Source of the DNA: Bryobacterales bacterium
GTDB lineage: Bacteria; Acidobacteriota; Terriglobia; Bryobacterales; Bryobacteraceae
Assembly (NCBI GenBank): GCA_947467185.1
Contig: CANIHR010000008.1
Span: 1-44,203, forward strand
DNA length: 44,203 bases
Reading direction: 5' to 3'
This document shows positions 9,920 to 17,372 of this stretch, in pieces (position 1 is the first letter of the stretch; each line of letters opens with the position of its first letter). Both the position numbers and the translations under genes were made by a program. The notes below the pieces were generated by a model. It had not been told where the DNA came from and ran no database searches. It saw nothing but the letters and a program-made list of their open reading frames with translations.

Positions 9920-11173
9920 TTGTCTAACCTTTTCGATACGCCAACGCTTCGCGCGCTCCGGCATCGCAACTTCCGCCTCTTCTTCAGCGGCCAGATCATC
10001 TCGCTCATCGGGACCTGGATGGAATCGGTCGCACAATCCTGGCTTGTCTACCGCCTCACCGGATCCTCCGCCCTCCTCGGCCTCGTCGCGTTCGCCGGCC
10101 AGATCCCGGTCCTCCTCCTCGGCCCCGTCGCCGGTCACCTCGCCGACCGCCTGAACCGTCGCACTATCATCATCGCCACCCAGGCCACCTTCATGTTGCT
10201 GGCCCTCCTGCTCGCCGCCCTCACACTCAGTGGTCACGTGCAGATCTGGCACATCTTCGTGATGGCCACCCTGATGGGCATCGTGAACGCCTTCGATGTC
10301 CCAGCGCGCCAGTCTTTCCTGGTCGAAATGGTGGGCCGTGAGGACATGATGAACGGCATTGCGCTCAACTCCACCATGTTCAACTTCGCGCGTGTCGCCG
10401 GACCCGCCATCGCCGGCCTCATCGTGGCGCAGATCGGTGAAGGCTGGTGTTTTCTGTTGAATGGGATATCCTACATCGCGGTCATTACCGGCCTGGTCAT
10501 GATGCGCCTCGGCCCGCCCGCGCCGCGTCCCGAATCTGAAGCCTCCCCCTGGCAGAACATCCGCGATGGCTACATCTTCATCGGTCAAAGCCGTCCTGTT
10601 CGCAACCTGCTCGCTATGATCGCGCTGCTCAGCTTTGCCGGCCTGCCCTTCATCGTCCTGTTGCCGATCTTCGCCGAAGAAATCCTCCACAGCGGTGCCA
10701 AAGGCCTCGGCCTGCTGATGTCCTCATCGGGCGTAGGAGCCACCGCCGGAGCTCTCCTCCTCGCCTCCCGTCGTAACGTTGTCGGCCTGAGTCGCTGGCT
10801 GTCGATGGCCGCCGTGACCTTCGCGGTCGCCCTCGCCACCTTCGCCTGGTCAACGAACCTCTGGCTCTCCGCCGCCCTGCTCCTCCTCACCGGCTTCGCC
10901 ATGATGGTCCAGATCGGCTCCTGCAACACCCTGATCCAGTCGATGGTCCCGGACCACTACCGCGGCCGCGTCATGGCCGTCTACTCGATGATGCTGATCG
11001 GCATGAACCCTCTCGGCGCCATGGCCTCCGGCTTCGCCGCCGCCAAATGGGGAGCCCCGCTCACCATCGCCGCCGGAGCCGGCTTGTGCCTCGCCGCAGC
11101 GCTGACCTTCGTCGCCCTGCTCCCCTCGTTCCACAAAGAAGCAAAGGTCCTCCTCGACCGCCACCACGGGTGA
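9920..11173 (+). CDS. MFS transporter (EntS/DUF894-like)
   Basis: RNFRLFFSGQIISLIGTWMESVAQSWLVYRLTGSS and ~12 hydrophobic segments. Confidence 0.88.
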   Translation: MSNLFDTPTLRALRHRNFRLFFSGQIISLIGTWMESVAQSWLVYRLTGSSALLGLVAFAGQIPVLLLGPVAGHLADRLNRRTIIIATQATFMLLALLLAALTLSGHVQIWHIFVMATLMGIVNAFDVPARQSFLVEMVGREDMMNGIALNSTMFNFARVAGPAIAGLIVAQIGEGWCFLLNGISYIAVITGLVMMRLGPPAPRPESEASPWQNIRDGYIFIGQSRPVRNLLAMIALLSFAGLPFIVLLPIFAEEILHSGAKGLGLLMSSSGVGATAGALLLASRRNVVGLSRWLSMAAVTFAVALATFAWSTNLWLSAALLLLTGFAMMVQIGSCNTLIQSMVPDHYRGRVMAVYSMMLIGMNPLGAMASGFAAAKWGAPLTIAAGAGLCLAAALTFVALLPSFHKEAKVLLDRHHG

Positions 11174-11260
11174 GACGGCGATGATCCTGGCAATTGGCCA
11201 AGCCAATCCGGCATGAGGACTCCCGCATCGTGATCGAACGTCAAGTAAGATTAAGGAGCG

Positions 11261-12577
11261 GTGATGCTGACTATTGACAATCCGGAATCACTGGCCGATT
11301 TGCCCTTCCACGATACGGGTAAGTATTCCGAGTTCGTCGTGGAATTGCGTTCTGCACTCGAGAACTTGGAGGGGGCTGACGTGACATCACTGCTTGACGG
11401 CAGGGCGGGTCAACGATGCTTGGAACTCGTGTCACGGCAGACAATTCGGGAATTGGGCTCCCATTTCACGTCATCTGCGTTGGCCGAACAGGTTGTGAGA
11501 GAGTTGCCGATCGAATCATGGGACCTGCATCGGGCATTTGATCCGGCATGTGGTGCGGGCGATCTGCTTTTGCCAATTGCGCGGCGGTTGAGCGTTAGGA
11601 ATACAATGTCGGAAACCCTGCGATTCTGGAATAGTCGCCTCGCAGGCTGTGATTTAAGTGGTGAGTTTATCGAAGCTGCCAGGCTTCGGCTTGTCTTGCT
11701 TGCAGCGAGCCGAGGTGTGACTGTGGATGACAATCCAAGCAATCTGGCGTCGCTCTTGACAAATGTTGCGGTGGGCGATGGCCTTTCGATACTTACGGAA
11801 TATGGAAACAGTTCAGTTATTTTGATGAACCCACCGTACGGCAAAATATCTGGTGCAAAGAGTAAATGGAGGAGCGGTTCTGCGACAGCAGCGGCGCTGT
11901 TCGTTGAGCGTGCAGTTATGCTTGGTGGTGCCAATACTTATATAGCGGCCATCTTGCCAGAAGTCTTGCGCACTGGAACAAGCTACGCCCGCTGGCGGAG
12001 CTTTGTAAGCAATTACGCGGTTACCACACGGTGCAAATCAGTCGGATTGTTTTCGAACCACGCAGACGTCGATGTTTTTGTCTGCCACTATCATCGGCGA
12101 GAGGTGCTAGTCAAGAATAGACCCGAAAGCGAAATCCTGTATGCCAAGACGGTAGGGGATCAGTTTGATGTTTCAGTTGGTACGGTAGTCCCGCATAGGC
12201 ACGCACAGGAAGGGCCTCGCTATGCCTATCTGCATGCAAAGAATGCCAAACCGCGCAAAGAGATTCGCCGCATTTCCGAATCGCGCCAATTTATGGGTCG
12301 GACTTTTGAACCACCAGTTGTGCTGATCCGTCGAACGTCAAGACCCGGCGATAGAAATCGCGCGATCGCGACCTTGGTGCTGGGTCACCGAAGAGTAGCA
12401 GTTGAAAATCATCTAATCGTTGCTCAGCCAAGAGATGGTTCAGTTGAAACTTGCCGATTCTTAATGCGCATTCTTGACTCATCGGAAACTGATGCCTATT
12501 TGGACGAGATTATTCGTTGTCGACATCTCACAACGCTGAGTGTCTGTTCGATACCTTTTTCACAGACACCCGCTTAG
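11261..12577 (+). CDS. N6-adenine-specific DNA methyltransferase with C-terminal TRD-like region (start GTG 11261 or ATG 11264)
   Basis: LGSHFTSSALAEQVV..., motif I FDPACGAGDLLLPIA, motif IV VILMNPPYGK; C-terminal PPVVLIRRTSRPGDRNR...HLIVAQP... resembles TaqI/Eco57I-type specificity regions; aaggag RBS. Confidence 0.8.
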   Translation: MMLTIDNPESLADLPFHDTGKYSEFVVELRSALENLEGADVTSLLDGRAGQRCLELVSRQTIRELGSHFTSSALAEQVVRELPIESWDLHRAFDPACGAGDLLLPIARRLSVRNTMSETLRFWNSRLAGCDLSGEFIEAARLRLVLLAASRGVTVDDNPSNLASLLTNVAVGDGLSILTEYGNSSVILMNPPYGKISGAKSKWRSGSATAAALFVERAVMLGGANTYIAAILPEVLRTGTSYARWRSFVSNYAVTTRCKSVGLFSNHADVDVFVCHYHRREVLVKNRPESEILYAKTVGDQFDVSVGTVVPHRHAQEGPRYAYLHAKNAKPRKEIRRISESRQFMGRTFEPPVVLIRRTSRPGDRNRAIATLVLGHRRVAVENHLIVAQPRDGSVETCRFLMRILDSSETDAYLDEIIRCRHLTTLSVCSIPFSQTPA

Positions 12578-13178
12578 TGTCCGAGTCCTGATAGGGTCTG
12601 CTTGTTATCACCTTCGTCTGGACTTGAAGCATAGCGTACATTAATTTAACTAGCTCGCGTTCCTCGGATTTCGTCATTATGTCTGCGGTATGGGTAAGCC
12701 ATTCGAGGATGTCTTGAGACGCTCGCAACGTGTGATCTAAGCGTCGCTCGAGAATCAGCTGGAAACGGTTGAGGAGAATTCGCTCCACCAGATACTTGCC
12801 GGCTGTTGTGTTTGACTCCAACTCGTACGAATGAGGGTTCACAGAGAATAGCGAGTTGTAGTCGGTCATTGTTGGATCTGGGTATCCAGGCGCGCTGTGG
12901 TCAGGCATCGGGTCCGCAGGCCAGTCGTCACACTTGAGGACATTACAGATCGAACAGGCAAGATACAGGTTACTGATGTCGTTTTCGAACTGCGGATACT
13001 TTACCTTTGGGCGAAAGTGCTCAATGTGGAAGTTGCGAATCCCGCCAAACCTGCCTTCTGGGATCGCGCAATAGATACAGCAGCCGTCGCAATGGTCAGC
13101 AATAAGTTTCTTCCATGACTGCCAATGTCCTTGGAGGGGCTGGCTCCGAGGTTTTCCGATGAGACGTGGCCACTTCAC
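12528..13178 (-). CDS. HNH endonuclease, PtuB-like
   Basis: CCIYCAIPE...FHIEHFRPKVKYPQFENDISNLYLACSICNVLK: Cys pair, IEHFRPK and NLxLxCxxCNxxK core; GTG start abuts the upstream stop (TAAGTG). Confidence 0.85.
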   Translation of the reverse strand: MKWPRLIGKPRSQPLQGHWQSWKKLIADHCDGCCIYCAIPEGRFGGIRNFHIEHFRPKVKYPQFENDISNLYLACSICNVLKCDDWPADPMPDHSAPGYPDPTMTDYNSLFSVNPHSYELESNTTAGKYLVERILLNRFQLILERRLDHTLRASQDILEWLTHTADIMTKSEERELVKLMYAMLQVQTKVITSRPYQDSDTKRVSVKKVSNRHSAL

Positions 13179-13844
13179 TTACGTCCGTCTCCGAGTTGGC
13201 TTATCTAAGCGTGCTTGGATCTTCTTCCGCAATGCATCTGCTCGCCGTTGCAGCGATTCGAACTCAGAAAGGACACCGTCGAGATTTATGATTGTGGGCA
13301 AGTCGGTCTGGAAGTAGCCCTGTAGCCCCTGTAGCCTCTCGCGTTCGTCGACGGTCGCCTCGCCGGATGCAACACTGCGTGCGAGCGTCTCCAACTTGCT
13401 TAGTAGTAATCGCTGCTCGTCATATCTGCGTTGCCCTGCACGAAGCATTTGAGGGAGAATGGTGTCAACGGTCGTCGTGAAATCATTCCGGCTAAAGAGT
13501 CCCTCAACATGGCTAAGATGGGGGTGCGCCATCTCCTTGAAGCCGGTGACTACAAAGATAGGGAAGGCCGGCCTCTTGTTACGAATCTCCCGGATGAGGC
13601 GATCCGCCTGATAATTAACCGCGCGCCTGCCACTAGCACCCTCGTTTAATTTCCAATCGGTGATGAGTACGGTTGCGTCGCACTCGTCGAGCCACTGCAG
13701 GACATCCTCTTCATCCGAAGGTGGCGCGTCTCCTATTACGGTCCACTGGTCATCTCTCTTAAGTTTTCTAAGAGTGGACTTAATCAAGCGACAGAGCGTC
13801 TCGCGTTGCGGCTTACGGTCGTCAATTACCGCGATAGTCGGCAT
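13179..13844 (-). CDS. Receiver (response-regulator-like) domain protein with a C-terminal helical region and no DNA-binding domain
   Basis: From M at 13844: MPTIAVIDDRKPQRETLCRLI...CDATVLITDWKLNE...FPIFVVTGFKE; helical C-terminus; start 2 nt after the kinase stop. Confidence 0.72.
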   Translation of the reverse strand: MPTIAVIDDRKPQRETLCRLIKSTLRKLKRDDQWTVIGDAPPSDEEDVLQWLDECDATVLITDWKLNEGASGRRAVNYQADRLIREIRNKRPAFPIFVVTGFKEMAHPHLSHVEGLFSRNDFTTTVDTILPQMLRAGQRRYDEQRLLLSKLETLARSVASGEATVDERERLQGLQGYFQTDLPTIINLDGVLSEFESLQRRADALRKKIQARLDKPTRRRT

Positions 13845-13846
13845 GA

Positions 13847-16114
13847 TCAGGAACCAAACTCTGGGAGCCATATAGTGAATCTGGCCCCGCCTAAGGTCGG
13901 ATCGGCATCTATCGTTCGCATCCCTTTCGCGTCCATTACCACCGCGTTGACAAGTGCCAAGCCCAAGCCCGTCCCCACTTCTTTCCCCTCCTCGTTAGTC
14001 TTAGTTGTGAAAAGTGGATTCCAAATACGCTCTCGATTTCCCACTTCAACGCCGGGCCCAGAGTCTCCAACCACCAGTTCGAATCCACTCCTGCCAAGCA
14101 CTTCCTTTGAACGTACGGCAATTGCAATGCGTCGAAGGTTCGAGGAGTGCATCGAAAAATAATACGCGTTCGTCAATAAATTTATCACAACGCATTCTAT
14201 GTCCATAGCAAAGACTCGGGCCTTGACAGGAGAAAGCTTAGATATTATTTCGATGGTGCTGGCGTCGAGGGCGGGTTTCATCTCGCTGAGAATTTCTTCA
14301 ATCAAGGCCGCAATGTCAGTGTTTCTCCTGACCCGTCGGTCTCTGCGAACGCGACCCAAGGCAAAGCCGCCCCATGCCGCTACTTTTTCGGCTTCCCGAA
14401 TTGCTTTGTCCAGCTCACTTAAGACTTCGTCGATTGGATCCTCATTATTTAATAAAATTTTGACCGTGCCGAGTATCGCTTTGACGCTGTCGAGGCCACT
14501 TTGGGTTTCGTGACCAAATGTGGCAGCTGCGATACCGATTGTCGCCAAAGTTCTGCTGACGCCGGACTGCGTGATCAGTTCTTCGAATGCTTTTTCAGCA
14601 TTGTTTAGACTTAGCGTGGTTGAGGCCAGTTGTTCGATCACATCTTGTGATCGATTAATACCGAGGCCCGGAAGCGTTTCCTCTGCGCGTTTTATAGTTG
14701 AGGCAAGGTCAAACAGACGAATTCGGAGCTCGTCAACTGTACCCCGTGGGCTTAGTTGTTGGATTTCAGGTTCCGTTGTTCGCGCTAGGAAATCTTCATG
14801 GTACTGCGATTCTAGTCTGTTAAGACAACCTAATAGGAAGCTCCGCATCATCCCAAATGCTGCTCCGGACACGAGCCCTTCACGTCCGGATGTATCGATG
14901 AGTTCCGGATTCGAATCTCTCCCAATGAAGATCGCACCTGCCAGTTGGTAAGGCGATACCCGGAAGTCCGGCCTGCCCGGACCCGCCGGATTCCGGGCTT
15001 TTCGGTCGCCGAGGCCCAGCCAGTCTCCTTCAGGGCGGCCCTGGTCCCCGTATGGGGGGACCCTAATGCCGTCGCGGTAAACACGTATTCCCGCATTCAT
15101 TCTGAGAAACTCTCTGAGTTCGGATAACTGTAGAGATTGGGTTCCCGAGGTGTCCGTTCTTTGAGGGTAAAATAAGAGCTTAACTGACAGTGGCCCTAGG
15201 CAGCTAACGGAATTGATTGATGCCGATGGCGATACGCCCCTGGGTTTCGGATGAACAAGTTGGCCGAACGGTATAGAAACCGCAGTTGTGACCCTTTCGC
15301 CCGCGTCTTGTCGCCAATGCTTGACGGACCCAACGACCATGCCGTCGCTCCTCAGCTCAAACTCGCCCTCGATGGCGGGATGAGTCCAGAGGGGAGACGG
15401 GACCACTCCGTTGTACTCTATCGCGACGTCGTTCTCGATACGGATTTGAAAATCCTTTACCGTATCAAAAGGAGAAGTGAGGAGCGCAAGCATTCGTTGC
15501 AATTCAGCCACATCCCGGGATTCCCAGTTTTGCCTAAGCTCCTTAATAATTAGCTCGGTACCGGTTTTCTCCGACGAATTGGGGATGGGCGCGGGGGGCG
15601 GATCGTACGTCTGCTGCTTTTCATTCCAGATTGAGGGTCGCGGTACCAGAAAACCTGATGAAGAAAGCTCTTGAACGCTGACGCTTTCCAGGTCGCGCCC
15701 AGGATGCTCGAAGTCGCGCCAATCTACAGCTAGCCCAACCGTGTTCTGGCTGTCTGATTGGGATCTCATCTCGAGCACGCAGCCCAGTCGATCAGCAGAA
15801 ATCCGACCGACTCCCTTTTCTCCGGTCTTTCGCCGCCCCGTGCGCGTGAATGTCTCCTTTCGCTTGGCGCTGTAGCCCAATCGAAGCCAATGTTCTTCCA
15901 CATCGATCCACGACATCCCCGCACCATCATCGCTGATAGTAATTGACGCATTGTGCGTCGCCGACCCGCTCGCACGAATGCCAACCACCACAATGGTAGC
16001 CCCGGCATCGTAGCTGTTCTTGACGAGTTCGAGGACCGCAGTTGTATGGTCCTTTATGCTCTCGCGGCCCCATGTCAGCATTGCGCGCGCATCGACGGAG
16101 AAATGTTTTGGCAT
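13847..16114 (-). CDS. Dual GHKL ATPase: N-terminal Hsp90/MORC-like module plus C-terminal histidine-kinase-like module
   Basis: N-terminal: TAVLELVKNSYDAGA, ISDDGAGMSWIDVEEHWLRLGYSAK, GRRKTGEKGVGRISADRLG. C-terminal: TFGHETQSGLDSV H-box-like, VVINLLTNAYYFS (N box), VVGDSGPGV (G1), IWNPLFTTK (F), GTGLGLALVNAVV (G2). Confidence 0.88.
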   Translation of the reverse strand: MPKHFSVDARAMLTWGRESIKDHTTAVLELVKNSYDAGATIVVVGIRASGSATHNASITISDDGAGMSWIDVEEHWLRLGYSAKRKETFTRTGRRKTGEKGVGRISADRLGCVLEMRSQSDSQNTVGLAVDWRDFEHPGRDLESVSVQELSSSGFLVPRPSIWNEKQQTYDPPPAPIPNSSEKTGTELIIKELRQNWESRDVAELQRMLALLTSPFDTVKDFQIRIENDVAIEYNGVVPSPLWTHPAIEGEFELRSDGMVVGSVKHWRQDAGERVTTAVSIPFGQLVHPKPRGVSPSASINSVSCLGPLSVKLLFYPQRTDTSGTQSLQLSELREFLRMNAGIRVYRDGIRVPPYGDQGRPEGDWLGLGDRKARNPAGPGRPDFRVSPYQLAGAIFIGRDSNPELIDTSGREGLVSGAAFGMMRSFLLGCLNRLESQYHEDFLARTTEPEIQQLSPRGTVDELRIRLFDLASTIKRAEETLPGLGINRSQDVIEQLASTTLSLNNAEKAFEELITQSGVSRTLATIGIAAATFGHETQSGLDSVKAILGTVKILLNNEDPIDEVLSELDKAIREAEKVAAWGGFALGRVRRDRRVRRNTDIAALIEEILSEMKPALDASTIEIISKLSPVKARVFAMDIECVVINLLTNAYYFSMHSSNLRRIAIAVRSKEVLGRSGFELVVGDSGPGVEVGNRERIWNPLFTTKTNEEGKEVGTGLGLALVNAVVMDAKGMRTIDADPTLGGARFTIWLPEFGS

Positions 16115-16325
16115 TTGTGAAGAGTTTACCGAACGTCACCGTGCGACCCGCTTGAACCGTGAATTCTTCATCAACCATCGTCGCAAAAATTGTCAGCATT
16201 TAAGCGAAGCTGACGACGAGTTCAAATCAGGGGTTGGCGGATGATGATATGGGTAATAAGGTACTGCCGTAAGGTCATCGGCTCGCGACGCATCGAGGGA
16301 TTTGCAGCGTTTTACGCCCCCGCCC

Positions 16326-17372
16326 TCACAACTCCCCCACGGAATAACTCAGCACCCCCTTCCGAGGTAACTGCCCCCCGCGCGCCGCGATGAACGCCCC
16401 CTGCCTCACTCCTGCCAACTCCATCCACCGCCGCAATCGCGCCACGTCACCCGGATTCGGCTCCTCCGAAATTCCTGCCGGCATTACGGGCGCGGTCTCC
16501 GTCTGAATCACCAGGGGAATCTCCAGCCCGTTCGAGTCCCGCCAATAACTTAACTCCGGCACCATCCCCGAATGCCGGGCATTTCGGTAGATCTCCCACA
16601 CCGCCTGGCTCTCCAGACTCGCACTCTCCGCAAAGTGCAGTTTCGGACTCCGCGTCAGCCGCCGCCCAAAATCCAGGTCAGACGCAGGCAGTCGCAGCAC
16701 TTGAAAGCACGTCTCCAGCACCTCCAGCCACCGCACTACCGTTCGATGCGATACCCCGCACTCCTTCGCCAGCGCCTGCTGATCCAGCACCTCGCCACTA
16801 CGCGACTTCGCCAACTCGACGAATTCCTCAAACCGGTCCAGATCGTGAACATTTACCAGGGCTCGCACATCCCGGTCGAGCCATGTCCGCCCTGCCGTCC
16901 AGGCAACGCCCGTTTGTCGACGAGCCTCCGCCCGCACCGGCTCAAATCGCCCCAGCATCTCCAGCGGCAGCGGCGCACGCCCCTCCAGCTCCGCCCGCGT
17001 CGGCGAATGCAACTCAAACGTTTCGAACGGCGTCCGAAGCCGAAGCGAACTCGCCAGAATCAGAGGCCGCGGCCCTTCGAGTTCCTCAATAAGAGAGGGC
17101 ACCCGGTGGATATCGTCAACAATCGTGGGCGCGCGCAATCGGCCCCAAAACGCCCGTGCATCCCGTCGAGCCATCGCCCGCGCAGCCGGATCTTCCAGCG
17201 ATATATATGCATGGGCGGGGAACGCATTTCGCAGCAACGTGGTCTTTCCGCCGCCTCGCGGACCCTGTACTAACACCGGGTGTCCCACCAGGGCCGCGCG
17301 ACGCAACGGGATCGACATTGTCCTGTAGATCATGAAATATCCGTCTGGAAAAATGATATTGCATACGCTCAT
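16326..17372 (-). CDS. AAA_14/DUF4143-type ATP-binding protein
   Basis: VLVQGPRGGGKTTLLRNAFP Walker A, PTIVDDIHRVPSLIEEL; C-terminal wHTH-like KECGVSHRTVVRWLEVLE and DUF4143-like tail. Confidence 0.72.
   Translation of the reverse strand: MSVCNIIFPDGYFMIYRTMSIPLRRAALVGHPVLVQGPRGGGKTTLLRNAFPAHAYISLEDPAARAMARRDARAFWGRLRAPTIVDDIHRVPSLIEELEGPRPLILASSLRLRTPFETFELHSPTRAELEGRAPLPLEMLGRFEPVRAEARRQTGVAWTAGRTWLDRDVRALVNVHDLDRFEEFVELAKSRSGEVLDQQALAKECGVSHRTVVRWLEVLETCFQVLRLPASDLDFGRRLTRSPKLHFAESASLESQAVWEIYRNARHSGMVPELSYWRDSNGLEIPLVIQTETAPVMPAGISEEPNPGDVARLRRWMELAGVRQGAFIAARGGQLPRKGVLSYSVGEL

Follow-up and report, generated by a model that had tools for sequence, protein, structure and literature searches.

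Pairs of a double-GHKL kinase and a receiver protein near restriction-modification (R-M) genes were reported in silico in 2021 as elements resembling two-component systems (TCS-like elements), mostly beside C5 methylases with Vsr or HNH_2 proteins; signalling cascades controlling R-M systems were proposed for them, and no direct output was proposed for the kinase-receiver pairs (Bellieny-Rabelo et al., PMC8011034). GHKL proteins and GHKL-nuclease fusions also occur in R-M loci (Iyer, Abhiman and Aravind, 2008, PMC2292703), and in VcSduA, a Shedu protein with a GHKL N-terminus, mutation of the ATPase site abolishes protection, both activities of the protein being needed (PMC12137116). In this study, we have analysed a stretch of 44,203 nucleotides from a Bryobacterales bacterium (contig CANIHR010000008.1; hereafter the window), in which four adjoining genes encode a double-GHKL kinase, a receiver, a PtuB-like HNH nuclease and an N6-adenine-type DNA methyltransferase. 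Based on our results, we read this set as a restriction-like antiviral cassette whose nuclease would be gated by an intracellular His-Asp relay while the methylase would protect self, a proposal to which, taken whole, we give about even credence; that the cassette has an antiviral or restriction role of some kind is very probable.

Like the TCS-like elements (HEF_HK/Response_reg_2), the window set joins a soluble kinase of HATPase_c_3 - dimerisation and histidine phosphotransfer (DHp) - HATPase_c layout to an adjacent receiver-only protein in an R-M neighbourhood; unlike them, it has an Eco57I-type N6 methylase and, in fixed order, a PtuB-like HNH nuclease or a metallo-beta-lactamase (MBL)-fold protein. 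The HEF_HK model (PF19191) had no match in the window kinase, nor in G000 at E<=0.01, and in 29 genomes and records scanned as a panel the cut-off was reached by L017 alone, from a wider group of kinases. Response_reg_2 (PF19192) stayed without a match at the window locus with the threshold relaxed to E<=10, and likewise in the 29 genomes and records, where no control matched either. With MORC and paraMORC proteins the kinase shares an N-terminal GHKL domain with all ATP-binding motifs, and methylase and nuclease neighbours, whereas, unlike in the R-M operons of that family (PMC2292703), it has a full histidine-kinase half and a receiver partner, in a cassette without a superfamily 2 (SF2) helicase. 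The nuclease has the HNH core of the PtuB effectors of Septu, retron I-A and Ec78, but its partners are a kinase and a receiver, with neither the PtuA ABC ATPase nor the retron reverse transcriptase in the cassette; Septu was rejected, as no PtuA ABC ATPase was present among the flanking genes scanned and none was recurrent in the operons of relatives. VcSduA offers, by analogy, an experimental precedent for control of a defence nuclease by a GHKL ATPase; unlike the window set, it is a single protein with a DUF4263 nuclease, without kinase relay or methylase (PMC12137116). As in type II R-M systems, the N6 methylase has invariant S-adenosylmethionine (SAM)-binding and catalytic motifs and matches MTase_II models. 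Detocs uses two-component logic in defence, a feature shared with the window set; unlike Detocs, the set has a nuclease effector and a methylase, and Detocs was rejected because no DtcA/Dtc model matched (PADLOC) and no purine-nucleoside-phosphorylase domain was present.

An earlier interpretation of this DNA, made without database searches (the sequence-only reading), had presented the four genes as a candidate undescribed defence system. The exact set is indeed unnamed in PADLOC-DB (2023 version; a newer name is possible), NCBIfam, Pfam and open-access full texts, and the PADLOC check matched no named system to it; still, it is not wholly undescribed, given the in silico account of kinase-receiver pairs next to R-M genes published in 2021 (PMC8011034). 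The legend of DefensePredictor Fig. 6F lists HATPase and REC, and, as far as a legend tells, a part of the set or a related one may appear there as a prediction.

The gene set recurs well beyond the window. Among 28 diverse, de-duplicated, intact loci, the receiver gene directly follows that of the double-GHKL kinase in every one, the next gene encodes a PtuB-like HNH nuclease in 22 and an MBL-fold protein in six, and an N6-type methylase adjoins this block in 26, the other two being L137, which stops at a contig edge, and L015, with none nearby. Part of these loci were found through the HNH nuclease or the methylase, and that gene is therefore present there by construction; the 20 loci found by the kinase alone have a receiver in 20/20, an HNH nuclease in 14, an MBL-fold protein in six and a methylase in 18. 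Chance adjacency of the four genes was rejected, since their order recurs in 28 diverse loci. In the nearest kinase relatives, G291 (45%) and G251 (40%), methylase, kinase, receiver and HNH nuclease form a single operon, and the same set lies on plasmids of Deinococcus gobiensis, Salipiger profundus, Bacteroides finegoldii and Ensifer adhaerens and in two Pseudomonadota genomes, with the methylase either before or after the block. The association that the sequence-only reading drew from one locus is thus borne out in two other genomes of the phylum, in Pseudomonadota, Deinococcus and Bacteroides, on rhizobial and enterobacterial plasmids and in prophages. Of the partners it named for the 755-aa protein, the receiver proved fixed, whereas the nuclease is variable.

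Viral sequences gave the same picture. Scanning IMG/VR with the kinase alignment found 13 loci, 12 of them of the close form and all 12 with the receiver next, and an HNH-alignment-only scan of viral contigs gave six strong matches, each directly after a receiver; weaker matches were to generic phage HNH genes. The window kinase alone as query found no relative in viral contigs, where the kinase alignment did find loci; a single-sequence kinase scan of genome contigs returned only one generic kinase fragment, and no cassette was found in complete E. coli genomes with DNA queries of two enterobacterial-type forms. Decayed copies were also seen: the Klebsiella variicola plasmid pBM374-1 (L013) keeps methylase, receiver and HNH nuclease with a kinase broken by frameshifts and stops, and in L146 the kinase gene is split into several open reading frames (ORFs) while neighbouring cassette genes remain.

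Judged by their residues, both signalling proteins carry two-component hallmarks, namely a predicted DHp histidine and N, G1 and G2 boxes in the kinase and a predicted phospho-acceptor aspartate in the receiver fold. The C-terminal GHKL domain keeps N645, N649, D684, G688, G714, T715, G716 and G718 in 28/28 loci; in the N-terminal one, D62, G64, G66, K100, G101 and G103 are equally invariant, and E29 and N33 are kept in 27/28. Over the DHp and catalytic ATP-binding (CA) regions, the kinase profile matched ZraS (E 2.6e-29) and HK853 (7e-26), and at the N-terminus MutL (7e-8). By fold, one half of the model resembles HK853/CpxA and the other MORC2/MORC3 ATPases; in the latter comparison, which bears on the S5-fold domain that follows the GHKL domain in paraMORC, about 510 columns aligned with a TM-score of 0.31-0.33 on a moderate-confidence model. 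The receiver has a weak Pfam Response_reg match (0.008), and its AlphaFold2 model, with a predicted local distance difference test (pLDDT) score of 84, matches solved receivers in Foldseek, which confirms the weak domain call. The domains assigned in the sequence-only reading, two GHKL modules (here HATPase_c_3 and HATPase_c), receiver, HNH and methyltransferase, were all recovered.

The N-terminus of the kinase also matches the BbrUII/HgiDII restriction enzyme (1.8e-20), and this, together with the GHKL proteins and GHKL-nuclease fusions of R-M loci (PMC2292703) and an arginine at the beta-5 lysine position of the window receiver, favours the main rival explanation: ATP-dependent restriction without a phosphorelay, in which a MORC-like clamp or translocase would work with a kinase half that is a second dimerising ATPase and a receiver that is a structural adaptor of the nuclease. 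Yet 28/28 loci retain both phospho-acceptors, His and Asp, even with other receivers no more than 12-27% identical to that of the window, and Asp17 (27/28) and Thr/Ser109 (28/28), needed for phosphorylation chemistry, are kept as well. We regard the clamp mechanism as unlikely, and consider His-Asp phosphotransfer as the switch to be slightly better than an even prospect.

No DNA-binding or helix-turn-helix output domain was found in the receiver by Pfam or in its AlphaFold2 model, where the C-terminus ends in helices, and an ordinary transcriptional two-component system was rejected on this ground. The pair could instead be a regulatory two-component system controlling R-M expression, as speculated for the TCS-like elements; cascades of that kind were proposed in 2021 (PMC8011034), and kinase and receiver do adjoin R-M genes. 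Besides the missing DNA-binding domain, this account has against it that the nuclease gene lies immediately downstream in the same operon and is replaced in some loci with kinase and receiver left in place, and we find it improbable. Direct gating of the nuclease by the receiver is, on balance, favoured.

As for the nuclease itself, C34, H54, N70, C75, N79 and K82 of the HNH core are kept in 22/22 loci and C37 and C78 in 21/22. Its best PADLOC match is PtuB1 and its best PDB profile match is Ec78 PtuB (1.6e-4), and against the NCBIfam PtuB model it reaches 27 bits for a cut-off of 150; the similarity to PtuB that the sequence-only reading had invoked is limited to the HNH core. In the sister form, the HNH nuclease gives way to an MBL-fold protein some 340 aa long (L011, L139, L141, L143, L144). 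The MBL assignment comes from Pfam Lactamase_B for L011, L139 and L144, from annotation for L015, and from position, length and tree group only for L141 and L143; in PADLOC, the protein of L139 is similar to RTasMBL and LmuA. In the kinase tree, the window groups with L048 and L049 (100/100) and the MBL form makes a separate group (100/100); deep branches are poorly supported, and we therefore make no claim on which nuclease came first.

By composition, synteny and distribution, the four-gene cassette is horizontally acquired and mobile. In G801, the closest congener found (91% and 83% protein identity for two flanking genes), DNA synteny with the window breaks off at 11130 and continues from 16342 on a different contig, and no remnant of the operon is present; as the flanks sit on different contigs, no clean empty site is visible. 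None of 24 further genomes from the family (18 from the genus itself) encodes a double-GHKL homologue, and the closely related form occurs in 3/396 genomes of the window's phylum and 2/399 Pseudomonadota, a rare and patchy distribution as expected of a mobile cassette. Two prophage copies, L153 (HNH form) and L144 (MBL form), adjoin P2-type portal and terminase genes, and a CI-like repressor gene and an integrase gene flank L155 and two near-copies. Both positions have been described as antiviral hotspots in prophages of the P2-like and K139-like kinds (PMC9122126). Of the contextual evidence, this placement speaks most strongly for a defence role. Residence on plasmids and prophages would also suit an addiction or selfish module of mobile elements, acting by post-segregational killing without real antiviral benefit. 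A methylase and a nuclease can form an addiction pair, which counts for this explanation; but the hotspots are otherwise filled by antiviral systems and an elaborate kinase would be unnecessary for addiction, and we hold it to be very improbable.

Returning to the proposed relay, its steps could run as follows. The methylase would mark host DNA, a self-protecting role that we consider probable. The soluble double-GHKL protein would engage foreign DNA through its MutL/MORC-type ATPase and clamp-like middle domain, the cue probably being unmethylated or structurally abnormal DNA, and ATP-driven closure would move the DHp helices into a position where His535 is phosphorylated by the C-terminal kinase module. 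From there the phosphate would pass to Asp72 of the receiver, which, having no DNA-binding output domain, would bind and license the nuclease of the cassette, an HNH protein in the window and an MBL-fold protein in the sister form, and the licensed nuclease would cut phage DNA, or all DNA if uncontrolled. The sequence itself shows the gene set and its order, the conserved catalytic residues, the folds, the mobility, the hotspot location and the exchange of nucleases and methylases; the sensing of methylation, phosphotransfer and nuclease licensing that the sequence-only reading had put forward are inferences, together with defence activity, receiver-nuclease contact and self-protection. Several points weigh against this scheme. 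The beta-5 position that is Lys in 19/28 loci and Arg in 4/28 is Arg in the window, which could weaken phospho-signalling there; the model of the double-GHKL protein is moderate (mean pLDDT 69.7), with the DHp region below 50; the window methylase is convergent and lies outside the kinase-receiver-HNH transcript; and the receiver may act by a route other than nuclease binding.

The four ORFs, one on the plus and three on the minus strand, were found in the ORF list of the window where the sequence-only reading had placed them (Table 1). Its spacing of the operon also holds once starts are chosen: the kinase stop TGA (13849-13847) and the receiver ATG leave a gap of 2 nt in a direct reading of the sequence, and the receiver stop TAA (13181-13179) is followed by the HNH start GTG without a gap. 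The listed receiver ORF extends to 13871 (230 aa), overlapping the kinase gene, and we place its start at ATG 13844 because its product then begins MPTIAVIDD, in alignment with related proteins at their starts. Operon and methylase do converge, as had been described, and beyond mere convergence the 3' ends of the HNH and methylase genes overlap by 50 bp (12528-12577). The low GC content remarked on earlier was confirmed against the 44 kb window only, with 52.7% in the four-gene block vs 62.1 +/- 1.4% in same-size segments outside it (range 60.1-64.4%) and a third-position GC (GC3) of 0.50-0.61 vs 0.70-0.84 in neighbouring genes.

Table 1. Features of the cassette and their positions in the window.
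Feature	Position	Strand	Basis or remark
Acquired low-GC island (extent lacking in closest congener)	11131..16341	.	G801 synteny, GC, search of 24 other family genomes
N6-adenine-type DNA methyltransferase, 438 aa	11261..12577	+	Start GTG 11261 or ATG 11264; Pfam, PADLOC, orthologues
Methyltransferase motif I, DPACGAG, SAM binding	11540..11560	+	Sequence; D94, P95, G98, G100 invariant in 8 orthologues
Methyltransferase motif IV, NPPYG, catalytic	11828..11842	+	N190, P191, P192 invariant
PtuB-like HNH nuclease, 216 aa, GTG start	12528..13178	-	PF01844 1.2e-6; PtuB1 6e-18; 5-relative alignment
HNH core, residues 34-82 (C34, C37, H54, N70, C75, C78, N79, K82)	12933..13079	-	Conservation, 22 loci
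Response-regulator-like receiver, helical C-terminus, ~221 aa	13179..13844	-	AlphaFold2, PDB receiver matches, 28/28 loci
Predicted phospho-acceptor Asp72 (230-aa ORF numbering)	13656..13658	-	D in 28/28 loci
Double-GHKL protein, 755 aa	13847..16114	-	N-terminal MutL/MORC-type ATPase, middle domain, DHp helices, C-terminal histidine-kinase ATPase
C-terminal GHKL (HATPase_c, residues 640-752)	13859..14197	-	PF02518 2.3e-19
Predicted phospho-acceptor His535, DHp helix (GHET)	14510..14512	-	H in 28/28 loci; ZraS profile alignment
N-terminal GHKL (HATPase_c_3, residues 25-145)	15680..16042	-	PF13589 1.1e-17

Ordinary host genes flank the cassette, encoding a myo-inositol-1-phosphate synthase, a major facilitator superfamily (MFS) transporter and CHRD and DUF3738 proteins, the last two of which suggest Acidobacteriota. 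An AAA_14/DUF4143 ATPase gene (16326-17372) directly adjoins the island and matches PADLOC PDC-S01 (7e-37); it was rejected as a part of the system, PDC-S01 being a broad family, and it seems resident, outside the island, because DNA similarity to G801 begins at 16342.

The window methylase, with weak Pfam Eco57I/N6_Mtase matches and a PADLOC MTase_II match (4e-17), is a full-length orthologue (33-41% identity) of a methylase of 420-450 aa found directly upstream of the kinase elsewhere, both in HNH-form loci (L093, L013, L150, L151, L153-L155, L169) and in MBL-form loci (L011, L139, L141, L143, L144). The closest kinase relatives, L048 and L049, carry different, non-orthologous methylases of 561-576 aa, and by this comparison the methylase is exchangeable. 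We take the window locus itself to be a recombinant in which the methylase has been re-attached convergently; the last ~14 residues of the HNH protein exceed its five aligned relatives and run into the methylase 3' end, which suggests a recombination junction.

A methylase-only scan gave 27 viral loci, in 13 of which the kinase-receiver-nuclease block adjoins the methylase. Pfam typing of five of the remaining loci showed a convergent HEPN gene in each, and the three examined further also have a GmrSD_N gene. In these typed loci (L152, L157, L158, L164, L167), which lie in prophages, the same methylase family is convergent to a RiboL-PSP/MAE_28990 HEPN gene, and, where examined, a GmrSD_N (DUF262, NsnA-like) gene comes next, the whole making an alternative restriction module that shares the methylase; L160, L165, L166, L168 and L172 have the same layout and are untyped. 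A combination of HEPN MAE_28990 with a ParB nuclease and a DNA methylase was noted earlier (PMC3710099). At least two restriction-type systems thus use this methylase as a plug-in module.

A wider group of double-GHKL kinases (L094-L125) lies beside C5 or N6 methylases with a partner of 300-640 aa, and may include or border the 2021 TCS-like elements. Those partners that were read have an N-terminal receiver-like region followed by varied C-terminal regions, several of which share a PxCDL-like motif; for those scanned, the C-terminal regions gave no informative match in Pfam or PADLOC. In L149 (9467-10297), the partner of a C5-methylase-linked double-GHKL kinase has a weak DUF4145/HepT-like HEPN match, hinting that RNase effectors could likewise plug into the relay.

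In conclusion, the HNH and MBL forms supply, at a fixed position, the output gene that was missing from the kinase-receiver pairs. With this gene fixed and the receiver devoid of a DNA-binding domain, the licensing of a DNA nuclease by phosphorylation becomes directly testable. It is possible, if somewhat doubtful, that this is the first restriction-type immunity with a post-translational His-Asp nuclease switch, run by a MORC-type DNA-sensing ATPase joined to a histidine kinase and taking interchangeable nucleases (HNH or MBL fold) and methylases. Were the proposal true, restriction would here be signal-gated rather than decided by site methylation only, and a tractable bacterial model for studying how MORC-family ATPases sense DNA would be at hand. 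The P2-like prophage copies represent forms that may be tractable in laboratory enterobacteria.

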